A stretch of DNA of 64,000 nt. It comes from Demequina sp. NBRC 110052. GTDB taxonomy: Bacteria; Actinomycetota; Actinomycetes; Actinomycetales; Demequinaceae. The DNA lies in contig NZ_BBRI01000002.1 of assembly GCF_002090075.1 (NCBI RefSeq), forward strand, positions 310,001 through 374,000, in the 5' to 3' direction. The notes below the pieces were generated by a model that was not told where the DNA came from, did not search any database, and saw only the letters and a program-made list of their open reading frames with translations. The translations under genes and the position numbers were made by a program. Positions 18,281 through 53,572 of this stretch are shown in pieces (positions within the stretch are counted from its first letter, which is position 1; each line of letters opens with the position of its first letter).

Positions 18281-18426
18281 GCGCGCTATTGTTCCACCTC
18301 GCATGCGCGCGCCGCGACCCTGACAGGCGGCGGCCCCGCTTCGCACGTCCCGCGTGGCGCGCACACGGGTGCCCTCGGGGCGCGAGACAATGACGCCTGG
18401 CCGAGCGGCCCATGGACAGGAGAGTG

Positions 18427-20865
18427 ATGGCAGCCACGCCCGACGCGCAGATCGTCGACATCGACGTCAGCACCGAGATGGAGACCTCGTTCCTCGAGTA
18501 CGCGTACTCGGTGATCTACTCGCGCGCCCTCCCTGACGCGCGCGACGGTCTCAAGCCGGTGCAGCGTCGCATCGTCTACACGATGAGCGACATGGGGCTG
18601 CGCCCCGACCGGGCGCACGTGAAGTCGTCGCGCGTGGTCGGCGAAGTCATGGGCAAGTACCACCCGCACGGTGACGGCGCGATCTACGACGCGCTCGTGC
18701 GCATGGCACAGCCGTTCTCGCTGCGGCTGCGCCTGGTGGACGGCCACGGCAACTTCGGTTCGCTCGACGACGGCCCCGCTGCCTCCCGGTACACCGAGGC
18801 GCGCATGGCGCCGGGGGCGATGGCCATGGTGGCCGACCTCGGTGAGGACGTCGTCGACTTCATCCCGAACTACGACAACAAGCTCGAGCAGCCTGCCGTG
18901 CTGCCGAGCGCCATCCCGAACCTGCTCGTCAACGGCGCGCAGGGCATCGCGGTGGGCATGGCCACCAACATGGCCCCGCACAACCTCGTCGAGGTCGTCT
19001 CGGCGGCACGCCACCTGCTGCATCACCCGAAGGCGGAACTCGACGAGCTGATGAGGTTCGTGCCGGGCCCGGACCTTCCCGGAGGTGGCCGCATCGTCGG
19101 CCTGGACGGCATCCGCCAGGCGTACGAGACGGGCAAGGGGGCGTTCAAGACGCGGGCCACCGCGCGCGTCGAGAAGGTCACGCCGCGCCGCCAGGGCATC
19201 GTCGTGACAGAACTGCCGTACCAGGTGGGACCAGAGAAGGTCATCGAGAAGATCAAGGACGGCGTCTCGAGCCGCAAGCTCGAGGGCATCTCCGCCGTCA
19301 CCGACCTCACGGACCGCCATCACGGCCTGCGCCTGGTCATTGAGATCAAGAACGGCTTCAACCCCGACGCCGTGCTCGAACGCCTCTATAAGGTGACGCC
19401 GCTCGAGGAATCCTTCTCGATCAACAACGTCGCCCTCGTCGACGGGCAGCCGCGCACCATGGGTCTCAAGGAGCTGCTGAAGGTCTGGGTGGACCACCGG
19501 CTCGACGTGGTGCGCCGCCGCAGCGCCTACCGGCTCAAGGCACGCAAGGACCGCCTGCACCTCGTGGACGGCCTGCTGATCGCGATCCTCGACATCGACG
19601 ACGTGATCCAGATCATCCGCACCTCGGACGATGCCGCCGCGGCCAAGGAACGCCTCATGACGGCGTTCGACCTGAGCGAGATCCAGTCGGAGTACATCCT
19701 CGAACTGCGCCTGCGGCGCCTCACGAAGTTCTCGCGCCTCGAGCTGGAGAATGAGAAGGCGCAGCTGCTCGCCGAGATCGCGGAGCTCGAGGAGATCCTC
19801 GGCTCCGATGCGGTGCTGCGCGACGTCGTGGGCCGCGAGATGGATGCGGCCGCCGCCGAGCACGGCACCCCCCGTCGCACGATCCTCCTCGCGGATGCGG
19901 GCGCACCGGCCACCACGGGCGTGCCGGGGACCGGAGCGGCCAAGCCCGCGGCGATGTCCATGGAGATCGAGGACACCCCGTGCTTCGCGCTGCTTTCCAC
20001 GACCGGCCTCGTGGCCCGCACTGCCGACGACTCGCCCGTTCCCACGGATGGCCGCCGCTCGGCACACGACGTGCTGCGCGCCGTCGTCCCGGCCTCGGCT
20101 CGCGCCGATGTGGGGGTCGTGACGTCGGCGGGACGCGTCCTGCGTCTGAGCCTCCTCGACGTGCCCGCCCTGGCCCCGTCATCGGAGCCGCCGTCGCTCG
20201 GCGGCGGCGTGCCATTGGCGGAGCTGCTGGTGCTCGACAAGGGCGAGGAGGCCGTGTCGATCGTGCCGCTCGGTTCTGAGACGCCTCTCGCCCTCGGCAC
20301 TGCGCAGGGCGTGGTGAAGCGCGTGACTCCCGGTGACGAGCCGAGCAGGGACGCCTGGGAGACGATCGGCCTCAAGGATGGCGACCGCGTGATCGGCGCC
20401 GCACCGGCGAGCGACGACGCTGAGGTCGTGTTCGTGACGTCGGATGCGCAGCTGCTGCGCTTCTCCGCGGGCGGCGTGCGACCTCAGGGCCGCTCTGGCG
20501 GCGGCATCGCGGGCATCAAGCTGGCGGCGGGCGCGCAGGTCCTGCACTTCGGAGTCGTCGCGCCCGATGCGGTGGAGCCGGTGGTCGTCACGATCGCCGG
20601 CCCGTCGGCCGCGCTTCCCGGCACCACTCCTGGCGCCGCGAAGGTCACGCCCTTCAGCGAGTACCCGGCCAAGGGGCGCGCGACCGGCGGCGTGCGCGCG
20701 CACCGGTTCTTGAAGGGCGAGGACGCGCTGCTGCACGCGGCGGTCGTGCCCTCTCCTCCGCGCGCCACCTCGGGCGCGGGCCAGGCCGTCGATCTGCCTT
20801 CCGAGCCGGGCCGACGCGACGGCTCAGGAACGCCGCTCGCGGCGCCCGTGCAGGGCATCGGGTAG
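18427..20865 (+). CDS. parC: DNA topoisomerase IV subunit A (ParC/GyrA-like)
   Basis: 812 residues from the ATG at 18427, chosen because AGGAG lies four bases upstream. ATG 18412 and GTG 18424 are in-frame alternatives. The breakage-reunion domain has the quinolone-resistance region ([43 protein letters not shown]) and the catalytic tyrosine Tyr122 in [11 protein letters not shown] coiled coil covers about 430-480. The C-terminal domain has beta-pinwheel repeats with only a degenerate GyrA box ([12 protein letters not shown]), which favours ParC over GyrA. The enzyme decatenates chromosomes. Its partner subunit lies at 24-26 kb on the other strand. Confidence 0.92.
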
Positions 20866-20979
20866 TGGAGAAGCCCGACCCACGCGCCTAACTCGCGTCC
20901 TATGTCCGCCGGAACGCTCGTCGTATCCGCTAGCGTCAGGTTCACAGCATCTTGAGAAACCTGGTCGCGAGGGGGCGTC

Positions 20980-22305
20980 ATGGTCGAAGAGAATTGGCAA
21001 CGCGCAAGGCTGATACCCGTTGTCGGGAACTCGACGGCCGGCGAACGCGAACAGCGTGCAACGAGTGCCCTGCTCGCGGTGCTGTCAATCGTGCGACCAC
21101 TTTCCACGGAACTGTTGGCACCGTTGGGCGCGACGCGCGCGGCCAAGGCGACCGTTGAGACCTTCATCGAGCCGACCTTCAAGGACAAGTCAGGTCAGTC
21201 CTTCCGCCCCGATGGCCTCATTCGTGTCCACTTCGGGAAGCAGGACCCTTGGGTCGCGCTCGTTGAGGTGAAGACCGGCTCGAATGCACTCCGCGTCGAG
21301 CAGGTGAACTCGTACATTGAGCTCGCTCGTGCCCACGGGTTCGACATGGTAATCACCATCTCGAACGAGATTGCACCCTCGGAAGGTCAGCATCCCACCG
21401 TCGGACTCAACGTGCGTTCGAACTCGAGGGTCAAAGTCGCGCACTTCTCGTGGACTCGCGTTGCTGCCATAGCGAGTCGCGTGCGCGATCGTTCGAACGT
21501 CGACGATCACGAACAGGCATGGATCCTTGGGGAGCTCTTGAGATATCTCGAGCACCAGAACTCGGGCGCTCTCGAGTTCGATGACATGGGTGAGAGCTGG
21601 ACTGCCGTCCGGGATGCAGCACGCGGTGGAACTGTGGCCGCTCGTGACCCCGGCACGGAAGACGTCGCCTCGCGGTGGGACCAGCTCATGACGTACGCAG
21701 CGATGAAGCTCTCAATCCGCATCAACGAAGACGTCGAGGAGGTTCTGCCGAAGTCGCACAGGACGGATGCGGCCGCACGCCGCAAGGACTTTGCGAAAGA
21801 ACTCGCCGACGAGGGCACTCTCACGGCGTACCTTCGTGTGCCCCGGACCGCAGGTGACATACAGATCTCGGCAGACCTGCGTGCACGCCAAGTTGCGCTC
21901 GCCATGACGGTCGCCGCGCCATCCGACAAGAAGGCTCGCGGGAGCCTGACGTGGCTCACGCGCCAACTTCCCGACGCGCCTGACGATCTCCATATCGATT
22001 GCTATGCCAAAGGGTCATCGAGACCGGTCAGCGGCATCATGAGCACGATCCGGACCGACCCCGCTCAGATGTTGGACTCCCTCGGAGACGACATCGCGAG
22101 GTTCGTGGTCCGCGTGCAACGTGACGTGTCGGTCGGACGGCGCGGCGGCAAGAATGCGGGCTTCGTCGGATCGGTGATCGACTCCACGTTCAGCTTCTAC
22201 GACTCGGTCGTGCAGCCCATCACTCCGTATCAGGAGCGTGCGCCAAAGGCCTCCGCAGCTGGCTCCGTCGCTTCCGAGCGAGAGCTCGGATCAGACGACG
22301 AGTAG
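20980..22305 (+). CDS. Solitary PD-(D/E)XK nuclease-like protein, function unknown
   Basis: 441 residues with an ATG preceded by GAGGGGG. Residues about 60-130 carry a PD-(D/E)XK arrangement: Pro77-Asp78 (SFRPDGLI), Glu96-x-Lys98 (LVEVKTG), and a Gln108-x3-Tyr112 pair (QVNSY) like motif IV of RecB/Cas4 nucleases. The C-terminal 300 residues match nothing I recognise. Base composition is lower than the neighbours: two counted 60-base lines gave 55% and 65% G+C, against 77% for a line of the adjacent parC gene. It sits alone between the convergent topoisomerase IV genes, suggesting acquisition. A DNA-targeting or defence role is possible but unsupported by known partners. Confidence 0.6.
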   Translation: MVEENWQRARLIPVVGNSTAGEREQRATSALLAVLSIVRPLSTELLAPLGATRAAKATVETFIEPTFKDKSGQSFRPDGLIRVHFGKQDPWVALVEVKTGSNALRVEQVNSYIELARAHGFDMVITISNEIAPSEGQHPTVGLNVRSNSRVKVAHFSWTRVAAIASRVRDRSNVDDHEQAWILGELLRYLEHQNSGALEFDDMGESWTAVRDAARGGTVAARDPGTEDVASRWDQLMTYAAMKLSIRINEDVEEVLPKSHRTDAAARRKDFAKELADEGTLTAYLRVPRTAGDIQISADLRARQVALAMTVAAPSDKKARGSLTWLTRQLPDAPDDLHIDCYAKGSSRPVSGIMSTIRTDPAQMLDSLGDDIARFVVRVQRDVSVGRRGGKNAGFVGSVIDSTFSFYDSVVQPITPYQERAPKASAAGSVASERELGSDDE

Positions 22306-22337
22306 TCGAACTCGAGATACTCCCGCGACGCGGGACA

Positions 22338-23618
22338 TCAGCGTTCGAACGACCACTCGCGGTCAGTGATGAGCTTGCCCACGACGAGTCCGACGAGGAT
22401 CGCGATTCCTGCCAGGAACACCTGCAGCAGGCCGGACGTCGCCTCGATGTAGTCCGCTTCGTTGAGGGACACGATCGCCTCGTGCGCGGGGACGCCCGGG
22501 ATCTGCACGAGCGCGGCAGGCACCTGCAGCGTGATGACCGGCCAGCGTCCACCCCTCGCCATCACGGCGGCGAGGATGCCGATCATGACGCACGCGATCG
22601 CGGTGGCCATCTGGATCGGAAGGTCGAACTGGTGCTGGAGTAGGTTGCGCGCGACGTAGGCGACCATGCCGATCCACGCCGCGGTGAGCGCCATGCGCCA
22701 TGGCGAGTTGAACATGAGTGCGAAGCCCGCGACGCCGACGAAGCTGCCGACCGCCCAGATCAGGGCTTGAGCCCAGAGCGGAATCGTCGCGTCCCGCTGC
22801 GAGGTGTCGAGACTGCTCATCAAGGACAGCGACCAGACCGCCACTCCGGCGCCCATCACGATCATGAGGCCGAATGCGACACGCGACAGTCCGGCAGAGA
22901 AGTCGAGCTTGGCCATGTCGAGGGTGCCGGTGATGAGCGCGAAGCCAGGCAGTAGGAACAGCACCGAGGAGATGTAGCCGGACGCGTGGACCTCGAGTCC
23001 AGGGCCCACGAGGCCGATCAGCCCGAGTACGCCCAGGTAGAGAGCCGTCGCAACGAGCGCGGCGATCATCGTGGTGCCGAGCGCGTTGAAGCCCCGATGC
23101 GCGAGCCCGCGCCTCAGGTACTGGCCTGCACCTGCGGCCACGAACACGGTCGCGATCTCGATCACGTGCGCGTGATTCAGCGCCGCGAAGCCTGCGCAGG
23201 CCGCGCCCGCCGCGGCGGCATTGAACCATGCGGAGTACCGGGCTGGCGTGCGCTCGATCGCGTCGAGCGCGCGGTGGATGTCCCCCGGCGTCGCGGACTC
23301 GGGAAGCGACCGCCTGAACCCGTCGAGCGCCGCGATCCGGTCGGCATTGACGCCGGCCTTGCGCAACTCGGACACCTCGGTCCTGAACATGTGGCCCACG
23401 CGGGAGGTGACGGTGATCTCGGTCAGCGTGACCTGCTCGCGGATCTCTTCGACGCCGAGCGCGTGGCCGACGGCCTGCATGGCCTGCTTGACGCGGTAGC
23501 TTGCGGTGCCCGCCTCGAGCATCATCAGCCCGGTGCGCATGATCGCGCCGGAACGGCGCCCGAGGTCGAGCGCGTCCATGTCGTCGGGGGCCGGCGTTGC
23601 GTCGCTCACGTGGCCCAT
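22338..23618 (-). CDS. Threonine/serine exporter family protein (ThrE)
   Basis: 426 residues from the ATG at 23616-23618; a GTG nine bases later is also possible. Residues about 20-170 form the DUF1212 cytoplasmic part (RTGLMMLEAGTASYRVKQAMQAVGHALG). About ten membrane segments follow (DUF1212 C-terminal and DUF3815-type halves), with ISSVLFLLPGFALITGTLDMAKLD between them. ThrE of Corynebacterium exports threonine and serine by proton motive force. The gene follows a small membrane-protein gene on the same strand. Confidence 0.88.
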   Translation of the reverse strand: MGHVSDATPAPDDMDALDLGRRSGAIMRTGLMMLEAGTASYRVKQAMQAVGHALGVEEIREQVTLTEITVTSRVGHMFRTEVSELRKAGVNADRIAALDGFRRSLPESATPGDIHRALDAIERTPARYSAWFNAAAAGAACAGFAALNHAHVIEIATVFVAAGAGQYLRRGLAHRGFNALGTTMIAALVATALYLGVLGLIGLVGPGLEVHASGYISSVLFLLPGFALITGTLDMAKLDFSAGLSRVAFGLMIVMGAGVAVWSLSLMSSLDTSQRDATIPLWAQALIWAVGSFVGVAGFALMFNSPWRMALTAAWIGMVAYVARNLLQHQFDLPIQMATAIACVMIGILAAVMARGGRWPVITLQVPAALVQIPGVPAHEAIVSLNEADYIEATSGLLQVFLAGIAILVGLVVGKLITDREWSFER

Positions 23619-23667
23619 TGTGGCAAAGGTCGCCGCGACATCGGAGGGTTCGAGGTCCCGGTCGCGA

Positions 23668-24075
23668 TCAGCGACCGACGCGCCGGCGCCAGTCGACGAT
23701 CCTGCGGATGCGCTCATGACGCACCGCGGCGGCGGTGCGCTCAAGCACGAGCGCGGCGACGATCGCGACGAGCACGAACACCCACGGCTCGGAGATGAAC
23801 ACCAGCCCGAGGGTGGCGATGGCTACCGCGACGACGACCAGGAGTGCCCTCGCGGGTCCCGGCGTGCGCTCGAGGACAGCGAGCTCGTCCGCGAACTCGA
23901 CCTCGCGGTCGGCGTCGCTCAGCTCCTCCTCCAGCATCGGGCAGCGCGCGGGCAGCCCGATCAGCGAGCGGTGACGGAACACGTGACGCGACGGCCCAGG
24001 CTCGATGCGCGAGCGCGCGTGGTAGCCGTACGGGTGTGCCGCGCAGAGCGGCCTGGTCTCCTCGATGTCGCTCAT
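23668..24075 (-). CDS. Small predicted membrane protein, function unknown
   Basis: 135 residues, not recognised. The N-terminal half is soluble and has two cysteines (CAAHPYGYHARSRIEPGPSRH, CPMLEEEL). Residues about 72-110 form two hydrophobic segments (ARALLVVVAVAIATLGLVFI and WVFVLVAIVAALVL). A basic tail (RHERIRRIVDWRRRVGR) follows. Its ATG overlaps the parE stop (24072-24075), so it is translated after topoisomerase IV subunit B, but nothing suggests a functional link. Confidence 0.65.
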   Translation of the reverse strand: MSDIEETRPLCAAHPYGYHARSRIEPGPSRHVFRHRSLIGLPARCPMLEEELSDADREVEFADELAVLERTPGPARALLVVVAVAIATLGLVFISEPWVFVLVAIVAALVLERTAAAVRHERIRRIVDWRRRVGR

Positions 24076-26168
24076 GCGTCGATCCTCGTCCTGTCCAGCG
24101 CGGCAGCGCCCGCGACGATGAAGTCGCGGCGCGGGCCCACATCGTTGCCCATGAGCAGCTCGAACACTCGCTCGGCGGCCTGCGCATCGGCCGCGGTGAT
24201 GCGCCGAAGCGTGCGGTGTTCGGGGTCCATGGTGGTCTCGGCCAGCTGGTCGGCGTCCATCTCACCGAGGCCCTTGTACCGCTGGATGTCTTCCTTGTAC
24301 CGGCGTCCCGCACGCTTGAGCTCGCGCAGCGTGTCGTTCAACTGCTGCTCGGAGTACGTGTAGATGTACTCCTTCTCGCGACGTGCACTTCCCATCACCT
24401 CGACACGGTGCAGCGGGGGCACCGCCGCATACACGCGGCCCGCGTCCACCATGGGACGCATGTAGCGGAAGAACAGCGTGAGCAGCAGGGTGCGGATGTG
24501 TGCGCCGTCCACGTCGGCGTCCGCCATGAGGATGATCTTGCCGTAGCGGGCCTGCTCGAGGTCGAACGTGCGCCCCGATCCCGCGCCGAGGACCTGGATG
24601 ATGTTCGCGCACTCCGCGTTGTGCAGCATGTCGGTGACCGACGCCTTCTGCACGTTGAGGATCTTGCCTCGGATGGGGAACAGCGCCTGGAACTCGGAGC
24701 GGCGCGCGAGCTTCGCCGTGCCGAGCGCGGAGTCCCCCTCGACGATGAAGAGCTCGGACTCGTTGACGTCGTTGCTGCGGCAGTCCGTGAGCTTGGCGGG
24801 CAGCGAGCTCGTCTCGAGCGCGTTCTTGCGCCGCGAGATCTCCTTCTGCTTGCGCGCGGCGACGCGCGCCCGCATCTCCGCGACGATCTTCTCCATCACG
24901 ATCGTCGCCTGAGTCTTGTCGTCGCGCTTGGACGAGCCGAGCACCGCGCCGAGCTCGCGCTCGACGACCTTGGCGACGATGCCGCGCACAGGAGAGGTGC
25001 CGAGCACCTCCTTGGTCTGTCCCTCGAACTGCGGCTCGGGGATGCGCACCGTCACCACGGCGGTGAGCCCAGCCATGATGTCGTCTTTCTCGATGCGCTC
25101 GGCGCCATCCTTGCCGGTGAGCTTGAGGCGCCGCGCGTTCGTCTCGATGGTCTTGCGCAGGATCTTCACGAGCCCCTGCTCGAAGCCCGACTGATGGGTG
25201 CCACCCTTGGGAGTGGAGATGATGTTGACGAAGCTGCGCACCTCGGTCTCGTAACCCGTCCCCCACCGCAGGGCGATGTCCACGACGCACTCGCGCTCGA
25301 CCTCCTCGCTGACGAGGTGGCCATTGGCCTTCAGCACCGGAACCGTCTCGGTGTAGGTGTCGGTGCCGCGCAGCTCCCACGTCTGCGTGATCGCGGTGTC
25401 GGCGGCGACGAAGTCCACGAAGTCCTTGGCGCCGCCCTCGAAGCGGAACGTCTGCTCGCTCGGCTCGAGCGGATTGCGCTCGTCGCGGACCACGAGCGAC
25501 AGGCCGGGCACGAGGAATGCGGTCTGACGCGCGCGCGTGATCAGGTCGTCGAACGAGAACGACGCTGACTTGTTGAAGATCTGACGATCGGCCCAGTACC
25601 GGATCCGCGTGCCGGTGCGGCCCTTGGCGACCTTGCCGACCTTCTCGAGCTCGGATCCCGTCACGAACGGCGAGAACTCAGCGTCGGGCGTCGCGCCTGA
25701 GGCGGGATCCGCGAACAGGCCCGGCTCGCCTCGCCGGAAGGCCATGTGGTGCGTCGCGCCCGAACGGTCGACCCACACGTCGAGGCGCTCGGACAGCGCA
25801 TTCACGACGGAGGCACCCACGCCATGCAGACCGCCCGACGCGGCATACGAGCCGCCGCCGAACTTGCCTCCCGCGTGGAGCTTGGTCATGACGACCTCGA
25901 CTCCGGTGAGGCCCGTCTTGGGCTCGACGTCCACGGGGATGCCGCGACCGTTGTCGCGCACCTCGACCGAGTCGTCGGGGTGGAGGATCACCTCGATGCG
26001 GTCACCGTAGCCGCCCAGCGCCTCGTCCACCGAGTTGTCGATGATCTCCCACAGGCAGTGCATGAGACCACGCGAGTCGGTGGTGCCGATGTACATGCCG
26101 GGACGCTTGCGCACGGCCTCGAGACCCTCGAGGACGGACAGATGGCGTGCGGAGTAGTCAGAGCTCAC
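24072..26168 (-). CDS. parE: DNA topoisomerase IV subunit B (ParE/GyrB-like)
   Basis: 698 residues with a GTG start. The GHKL ATPase domain shows RKRPGMYIGTTD, the Mg-binding Glu41/Asn45 helix (WEIIDNSVDEAL), VRDNGRGIPVD and GGLHGVGASVVNALS. The TOPRIM domain shows FIVEGDSALGTAKLAR and LMADADVDGAHI, and the tail has RYKGLGEMDADQLAETTMDP. It supplies ATP-driven strand passage with the subunit at 18-21 kb. TAGAAT lies exactly six bases before the GTG and there is no ribosome site, indicating a leaderless mRNA. Confidence 0.94.
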   Translation of the reverse strand: MSSDYSARHLSVLEGLEAVRKRPGMYIGTTDSRGLMHCLWEIIDNSVDEALGGYGDRIEVILHPDDSVEVRDNGRGIPVDVEPKTGLTGVEVVMTKLHAGGKFGGGSYAASGGLHGVGASVVNALSERLDVWVDRSGATHHMAFRRGEPGLFADPASGATPDAEFSPFVTGSELEKVGKVAKGRTGTRIRYWADRQIFNKSASFSFDDLITRARQTAFLVPGLSLVVRDERNPLEPSEQTFRFEGGAKDFVDFVAADTAITQTWELRGTDTYTETVPVLKANGHLVSEEVERECVVDIALRWGTGYETEVRSFVNIISTPKGGTHQSGFEQGLVKILRKTIETNARRLKLTGKDGAERIEKDDIMAGLTAVVTVRIPEPQFEGQTKEVLGTSPVRGIVAKVVERELGAVLGSSKRDDKTQATIVMEKIVAEMRARVAARKQKEISRRKNALETSSLPAKLTDCRSNDVNESELFIVEGDSALGTAKLARRSEFQALFPIRGKILNVQKASVTDMLHNAECANIIQVLGAGSGRTFDLEQARYGKIILMADADVDGAHIRTLLLTLFFRYMRPMVDAGRVYAAVPPLHRVEVMGSARREKEYIYTYSEQQLNDTLRELKRAGRRYKEDIQRYKGLGEMDADQLAETTMDPEHRTLRRITAADAQAAERVFELLMGNDVGPRRDFIVAGAAALDRTRIDA

Positions 26169-51850: not shown

Positions 51851-53572
51851 CTACTTCACGGGCGCGTGGTCGGTGTTGTCACGCTCTGCCTGGTGGTGGT
51901 CGCGTGCGGCCGCCTCCGGGTGGTGGAGGTCGAACGCGGGGCGCTCGGAGCGGATGCGCGGGATGGAAGTGAAGTTGTGGCGCGGCGGCGGGCAGGACGT
52001 GGCCCACTCGAGCGAGTTGCCGAAGCCCCACGGGTCGTCGACGGTCACCTTGGGCGCGCGACGCGACGTGATGTACACGTTCCACAGGAACGGGAGCGTC
52101 GACAGCGCAGTGAGGAACGCACCGAAGGTGGACACCTGGTTCATCCAGGTGAAGCCGTCCTCTGGGAGGTAGTCCACGTAGCGTCGGGCCATGCCGTCCG
52201 CGCCCAGCCAGTGCTGGATGAGGAACGTCGTGTGGAAGCCGAAGAACAGCAGCCAGAAGTGGATCTTGCCCCAGCGCTCGTTGAGCATCCTTCCGGTGAA
52301 CTTGGGCCACCAGAAGTAGAAGCCGGCGAACATCGCGAACACCACGGTGCCGAAGACGACGTAGTGGAAGTGGGCGACCACGAAGTACGTGTCGGACACC
52401 GGGAAGTCCAGGACCGGCGAGCTGAGAATGATGCCCGTGAGGCCTCCGAAGAGGAACGTCACGAGGAAGCCCACGGACCAGAGCATCGGCGTCTCGAACG
52501 AGAGCTTGCCTCGCCACATGGTGCCGATCCAGTTGAAGAACTTCACGCCCGTCGGGACCGCGATGAGCATCGTCATGAACGCGAAGAACGGCAGCAGCAC
52601 GGCACCGGTGACGTACATGTGGTGCGCCCACACGGACACGGACAGCGCCGCGATCGCGATGGTCGCGTACACGAGGCCGTGATAGCCGAACAGGGGCTTA
52701 CGCGAGAATACCGGGAAGATCTCGGAGACGATGCCGAAGAACGGCAGCGCGATGATGTAGACCTCCGGATGTCCGAAGAACCAGAACAGGTGCTGCCACA
52801 GGATGGCGCCGCCGTTGTCAGGGTTGAACACCTGCGAGCCGAGCGTGCGGTCCGAGCCGAGCGCGAACAGCGCGGCCGCCAGCGGCGGGAACGCGATGAT
52901 CACCAGCATCGAGGTCACGAGCGTGTTCCACACGAAGATGGGCATGCGGAACATGGTCATGCCGGGTGCGCGCATCGTGACGATGGTGGTGATGAAGTTG
53001 ACCGAACCGAGGATCGTTCCGAAGCCACCGAGCGCGAGGCCGAAGACCCACAGGTCCCCGCCCACGCCAGGCGAGTAGACCGCGTTCGACAGCGGCGCGT
53101 ACGCGAACCATCCGAAGGAGGCCGCTCCGGCGGGCGTGAAGAAGCCTGCCATCGCGATCATGCCGCCGAACAGGTACAGCCAGTAAGCGAACATGTTCAG
53201 ACGCGGGAAGGCGACGTCGGGTGCGCCGATCTGCAGCGGCATGATGACGTTGGCGAAGCCCGCGAACAGCGGCGTCGCGAACAGCAGCAGCATGATCGTG
53301 CCGTGCATGGTGAACAGCTGGTTGTACTGCTCTGCCGACTGGACGATCTGGATGCCCGGCGCGAACAGCTCGGCACGGATCAGCAGCGCGAGGATGCCTC
53401 CGACGACGAAGAAGAAGAACGACGTCGCGAGGTACATGTAGCCGATGGTCTTGTGGTCCGTGGAGGTGATCCACTTGATGACCTGCGAGCCGGAGCGGCT
53501 GGGCGCGGCGGGGATCGTCTCCACGACGGCGACGTCAGTGGTGGCCTCGTATGCGGTGGTGGCCATGGTCAC
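51851..53572 (-). CDS. ctaD: Cytochrome c oxidase subunit I
   Basis: 573 residues from the GTG that overlaps the ctaC stop and sits five bases after GAGGAG; an ATG two codons later is 11 bases away. Twelve membrane helices carry the heme and copper ligands. They include [22 protein letters not shown] (heme a His), [22 protein letters not shown] (CuB His and Tyr), [10 protein letters not shown] (CuB His pair) and [13 protein letters not shown] (heme His residues). It reduces oxygen to water and pumps protons. It is coupled to ctaC and ctaF. Confidence 0.97.

Follow-up and report, generated by a model that had tools for sequence, protein, structure and literature searches.

A gene of low G+C between parC and thrE

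What does the gene of low G+C that lies between parC and thrE in Demequina sp. NBRC 110052 encode, and what might the protein do? The question was addressed in a stretch of 64,000 nt (contig NZ_BBRI01000002.1, positions 310,001 to 374,000), called the window below, for which the original prediction had proposed a stand-alone PD-(D/E)XK nuclease serving as a single-gene defence or DNA-quality system. The features of the locus, in window coordinates, are as follows.

18412..20865, + strand: parC (topoisomerase IV subunit A), flanking gene, by Pfam
20866..22337, no strand: putatively acquired interval from the parC stop to the thrE stop, by comparison with the gap of relatives
20980..22305, + strand: 441-aa gene with ATG start, predicted nuclease plus chaperone-like domain
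22338..23744, − strand: thrE-like exporter, flanking gene, by Pfam
24072..26168, − strand: parE (topoisomerase IV subunit B), by Pfam

An ORF of 441 residues is indeed present on the + strand at 20980–22305 and fills most of the parC–thrE interval. It lies, as predicted, between convergent topoisomerase IV genes (parC on the + strand, parE on the − strand), and its direct right-hand neighbour is thrE, which is followed by one small ORF before parE. The lower base composition noted earlier was also confirmed: the ORF has a G+C content of 62.4% and a GC3 of 74%, compared with 67–74% and 83–91% in the five other ORFs measured, and 21001–22000 has the lowest G+C among the 64 segments of 1 kb. The second-lowest 1-kb segment (52001–53000, 63.2%) is located close to a sign change in GC skew. 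A consensus scan detected no sigma-70-type promoter or terminator-like site, and no repeats were found flanking the parC–thrE interval. The gene stands alone as had been claimed, with no methylase or helicase directly adjacent according to Pfam (direct neighbours parC and thrE); likewise, among these immediate neighbours there is no cognate methyltransferase gene, as a type II restriction-modification system would have.

The N-terminal part is a predicted PD-(D/E)XK nuclease

Sequence comparison and modelling show the window protein to be a predicted PD-(D/E)XK nuclease whose active site is conserved; its features are as follows.

21007..21555, + strand: PD-(D/E)XK nuclease fold, residues about 10–192, by AlphaFold2 model and structure comparison
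21049..21051, + strand: E24 on helix 1, invariant, by alignment and model
21208..21213, + strand: P77-D78, invariant, by alignment
21265..21273, + strand: E96-x-K98, E and K invariant, by alignment
21301..21315, + strand: Q108xxxY112, Q and Y invariant, by alignment

The PD (77–78), ExK (96–98) and QxxxY (108–112) elements read earlier from the sequence are all present, and E24, P77, D78, E96, K98, Q108 and Y112 show no variation across the 50 aligned rows, the window protein included. AlphaFold2 run on this 50-row alignment modelled the whole protein with a pLDDT of 89.5 and a pTM of 0.86. The closest fold match of the nuclease part was AF1548 (1y88; Z 9.2, rmsd 3.1 over 115 residues), comparisons with Can2, FokI, MspJI and N.BspD6I gave Z of about 7 (7.1 for MspJI), and EcoT38I was the sole Foldseek match at E ≤ 0.001 (E 5.8e-4). 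Two traits by which the superfamily is recognized, conservation of the D...(D/E)xK residues and a restriction-endonuclease-like core fold, were found, and the nuclease identity thus held up on the invariant active site and the modelled fold together. The predicted activity would be metal-dependent cleavage of nucleic acid, most likely DNA.

Residues about 10–192 therefore share their fold and catalytic residues with the catalytic domains of AF1548, Can2, FokI and MspJI, whereas the window protein fits no Pfam family of the superfamily, has no sequence match in the PDB and carries a different partner domain. Its relatives fit weakly: among the 50 members, matches at E ≤ 1 were obtained to VRR_NUC (PF08774) in 23, to Tox-REase-7 in 12 and to TnsA-like in 11, with best E values of 0.00068 for VRR_NUC and 0.012 for Tox-REase-7, and in the Pfam search the window protein itself had no VRR_NUC match. 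PADLOC and PHROGs returned nothing for it at E ≤ 1, and Pfam and NCBIfam returned one match each, far below cut-off. No model of PADLOC-DB 2.0.0 matched the window protein, and the 50 members gave two weak single-member matches. A PDB sequence search with the window protein gave no relevant match, profile searches of the PDB (whole protein, C-domain and nuclease) gave weak unrelated matches or none, and a BFVD fold search gave nothing at E ≤ 0.001. In the open-licence literature, judged by titles and abstract openings, no paper describing the family was found, and the passages on YbjN, chaperones and TerD seen in PMC7159879 do not mention it. The family, a nuclease joined to a chaperone-like domain, is real; it is named in none of the four libraries searched and is widespread, with 348 loci in one genome scan.

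The C-terminal region resembles a chaperone fold

The remaining part of the protein comprises a joint, a folded domain and a tail.

21562..21612, + strand: conserved joint between the domains, residues 195–211, with G196, D202, M203, G204 and W207 invariant, by alignment
21649..22212, + strand: segment inside the C-terminal region, by modelling and structure comparison
22261..22302, + strand: acidic tail, residues 428–441, of low model confidence and probably disordered, lacking S-x3-SS[QM]D, by sequence and model

When modelled alone, residues 195–424 reached a pLDDT of 92.3. The model resembles most the YbjN proteins and the class I type III secretion chaperones, by fold only: YbjN (6vu7) matched with Z 7.2 and rmsd 4.0 over 131 residues, followed by Spa15 (Z 7.0), AmyR (6.7), SycN-YscB (6.3), VecA (6.2) and SicP (6.0), where a best Z of about 7 is to be read against the guide that values below 8 may reflect a common arrangement. 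YbjN/AmyR or type III secretion chaperones account for 12 of the 16 rows at Z ≥ 5.2 and represent nine different proteins or complexes; the remaining four (2a8e, 2plg, 1yb3 and 8q8o) are not named as such, and three other proteins at Z 6.8–7.1 rank among the YbjN and chaperone matches. The first clearly different fold was T4 MotA, at Z 5.1. YbjN was also the best Foldseek match of the domain (E 0.044). When the C-domain was compared by hhalign with a profile of 20 YbjN sequences from the order, the probability was 1.1% (0.1% for the nuclease part as a control), so the relation is a resemblance of fold and descent is not demonstrated. The earlier description of this region as unrecognized is thereby corrected and the region partly explained: it resembles a known fold (YbjN/type III secretion chaperone-like, Z about 7). 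No domain with an established housekeeping role turned up in this region.

According to PMC3575483, DR1245, which has the YbjN/type III chaperone fold, has the element order a-b-b-b-a-b-b-a. The modelled C-domain follows this order with extra helices and one additional strand ahead of the last helix. YbjN, AmyR and several of the class I type III chaperones (TY-chaperones) are its nearest folds, DR1245 itself being absent from the listed structure-match rows, whereas the C-domain differs from this group in its extra helices and late strand, in the lack of detected sequence similarity and in being fused to a nuclease. TY-chaperone domains are reported in ADP-ribose-linked conflict systems in PMC9503650, where TY-Chap1-3 place a fold of this type in a proposed conflict context. 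The likeness is one of fold type, and TY-Chap1-3 sit in ARG-centred gene clusters, whereas no conserved cluster was found for the present family.

The tails of relatives often carry a motif. S-x3-SS[QM]D was found in 41 of 66 tails, namely those that a pattern could cut from 77 target genes, compared with 6 of 13,200 shuffled tails. It is absent from the window protein and from the counted members of its Acidimicrobiia clade; L065, titled Acidimicrobiales, carries it. Many of the otherwise variable tails of L057–L113 keep a peptide of the S-T-x-x-S-S-Q-D type.

The gene is patchily distributed and probably transferred

The family is a patchy accessory gene: two of the 44 genus genomes have it, and 28 of 396 in the order. 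The other 42 genus genomes, a few of them incomplete, gave no match. The second copy of the genus (L039, in genome G018) is 59% identical to that of the window and lies about 3.3 kb beyond the thrE start; the parC–thrE gap of G018 is 77 bp. This genome is one of nine genus relatives with an empty parC–thrE site (gap 27–86 bp, stop codons counted), and in 31 others the interval measures 0.4–4.5 kb, the comparison covering these two sets and the window genome, 41 of the 44 in all. Presence at this locus in all relatives with normal composition, which would have spoken against the original prediction, is not what the genus genomes show.

The length of the interval ranges between 27 bp and 4.5 kb across the genus. 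In nine cases (in the L154–L184 set) it contains a roughly 900-aa ORF, presumably PEP carboxylase, and others contain different ORFs, some of them acetyltransferase-like by eye.

In a tree of 71 rows, the window protein and L039 fall within a clade of 17 rows with support of 100/100. The other 15 rows are from Acidimicrobiia, 13 by title and two presumably so, as judged by name. This placement, together with the low G+C, points to acquisition of the window copy from Acidimicrobiia, the probable direction of transfer. Of the 348 family loci found by the genome scan, some were on contigs titled Planctomycetota or Verrucomicrobia(les); the best 80 were kept for analysis. The patchy spread, the plasmid copies described below and the Acidimicrobiia clade around the window copy together argue for horizontal transfer.

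The nuclease is coupled to the C-domain and in one clade to TerD

A search with the C-domain in 396 genomes of the phylum gave a match in 24. In 22 of the 23 C-domain loci inspected, the window included and two fragments in G489 left out, a PD...ExK...Q...Y motif lies upstream in the same frame, and the remaining locus is cut by the contig start. The 28 order genomes with the family comprise 17 with a full-length standalone form, seven with TerD and four with only a short nuclease form, classes that were assigned from match length and position. Short nuclease paralogues without the chaperone-like domain, of about 280–320 aa, were seen at L026–L031, one of which (L030, from a genome outside those four) contains DUF2510 by Pfam scan; in two large genomes, G158 and G197, short paralogues lie 2–3 kb from a full-length copy.

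An N-terminal TerD domain (PF02342) characterizes one clade, as found by Pfam scan of two order copies and two plasmid copies, and TerD lies in the same open frame in seven of seven order genomes of the fused type. Plasmid matches came from eleven Rhodococcus and Streptomyces records, 10 of which carry the annotation 'TerD family protein', the eleventh having none. The fused relatives of Streptomyces and Rhodococcus plasmids have the nuclease and the C-terminal domain in common with the window protein (33–37% identical) but differ by the N-terminal TerD (two plasmid copies scanned), which Pfam did not find in the window protein and which is absent from its genome. None of the 17 genomes tested with the standalone form has TerD either, and dependence of this form on TerD was rejected. 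Because TerD occurs in only 32 of the 396 order genomes, its absence from the standalone genomes is not significant avoidance. PMC7824862 presents TerD as a domain that binds ligands and might be the sensor of a nucleotide-type Ter signal, and PMC3710099 mentions a TerD-dependent anti-phage system. The TerD fusions hint at an input from stress or conflict.

Neighbouring genes and the defence question

A single-gene defence role is not supported so far: the protein has no PADLOC model, the gene has no conserved neighbours, and no defence-like genes were seen by eye at parC–thrE. Patchiness, transfer, the retained active site and the absence of a partner can be counted for such a role, and both it and its mechanism would be putative for the nuclease family. 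A defence hotspot at parC–thrE was rejected, the 31 other intervals of 0.4–4.5 kb containing no defence-like gene by eye. A conserved operon was also rejected. Neighbours were clustered over at most eight called genes per side at 77 of the 80 loci (three had no called target), with a rough gene caller, and no family extended beyond 15 of the 77 loci; the widest, presumably ABC ATPases, occurs at scattered positions.

Of the 174 eligible called genes lying at most three genes from the nuclease, 115 were sampled as near neighbours; they matched 77 PADLOC families at E ≤ 1e-10, each of the first 25 listed with at most two proteins, and PDC-M68B, PDC-S30, PDC-S48, UzuA and RT_UG22 are among those listed, with one protein each. 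As a control, 119 of 122 eligible genes at a distance of at least six genes gave matches to 13 families, with up to four proteins per family (mad3, AriA). PD-T4-6 models make up many of the near families and probably reflect one kinase-type protein matching many of them, so family counts are not gene counts; the near-neighbour list leans towards defence without showing a clear enrichment. Of nine P-loop neighbours, which were hand-picked and hence biased upward, PADLOC models matched six at E ≤ 1e-8: AbiLi beside L066, PDC-S01 beside L038, PifA near L090 and weaker ones near L064, L092 and L074. The other three had no match. No phage carriage was detected by tblastn in INPHARED, and none of the 62 IMG/VR stretches that fitted two short peptide patterns was a relative, although distant relatives could escape such a search.

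Possible functions of the protein

The reading that we tentatively prefer, with somewhat less than even confidence, is that of a stand-alone, horizontally spread nuclease acting as effector in a response to stress or conflict, in which the chaperone-like domain binds a protein partner. The nuclease would cut nucleic acid, most likely DNA, with a divalent metal. The chaperone-like domain would hold an extended protein segment from a partner, a phage protein or a misfolded protein, and binding of this segment would gate or target the nuclease; in relatives, the tail peptide may perhaps be the segment that is bound. TerD fusion would add a ligand-sensing input, and the gene would act alone and move alone. 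The invariant catalytic residues (50/50), the C-domain fold, the coupling of nuclease and C-domain (22/23), the TerD fusions, the transfer and the tail motif are counted for this effector. Counted against it are that the C-domain is assigned by fold only (Z about 7, Foldseek E 0.044, profile 1.1%), that the standalone form lacks TerD, that there is no conserved neighbour, no phage or viral carrier and no clear PADLOC enrichment, and that the tail motif is missing from the window protein. What makes the family interesting is the pairing of a conserved nuclease with a domain most similar to folds that bind protein segments, together with its link to the TerD stress system through fusion. Should the nuclease be gated by the chaperone-like domain, the family would offer a simple one-gene model of a nuclease triggered by a peptide.

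Other functions would fit parts of the same evidence. An accessory nuclease of DNA repair or replication, recruited to DNA intermediates by a partner (for instance a single-strand-binding protein) that the chaperone-like domain holds, is unlikely. It would be consistent with the weak VRR_NUC matches (23/50 members, best E 0.00068), and, according to PMC3575483, DR1245 of Deinococcus directly binds the SSB-like DdrB; however, the dr1245 knockout described there recovers from gamma irradiation with a slight delay only, and the gene studied here is patchy (2/44 genus, 28/396 order), apparently transferred and without a conserved neighbour. It is distinctly unlikely that the protein is a type IV-like restriction enzyme that depends on modification and uses its C-terminal domain to read modified DNA. 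The single gene without a directly adjacent methylase agrees with this, as does MspJI, a modification-dependent enzyme, among the nuclease fold matches (Z 7.1), and the DNA-binding domain of T4 MotA matches the C-domain (Z 5.1); YbjN and most type III chaperone rows score above MotA, however, Pfam identified no known modified-base reader, and no PADLOC model matched. A selfish or toxin-like nuclease that persists through its own spread, with the chaperone-like domain keeping it silent in place of an antitoxin, is very unlikely: a single, patchy, apparently transferred gene and weak Tox-REase-7 matches (12/50 members, best E 0.012) speak for it, but no antitoxin-like ORF stands out in the interval among ORFs of at least 100 aa, and the interval lacks bracketing repeats.

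A more novel reading, which we consider quite unlikely, is a new one-protein family of immune sensor-effectors. Its type III chaperone-like pocket would recognize a peptide exposed on a phage protein or on a damaged one, and would release the fused PD-(D/E)XK nuclease, with TerD as the ligand sensor in one lineage and the SSQD tail as a lock or docking site in many others.

The TerD fusion may be mentioned in a 2012 paper on the Ter system by Anantharaman and colleagues. Among the fused copies, L025 has a TGA within the match and is a possible pseudogene, and RES-type, ThiF and Mov34/JAB genes lie near the copy on a Rhodococcus plasmid (L032, 4552–14148).
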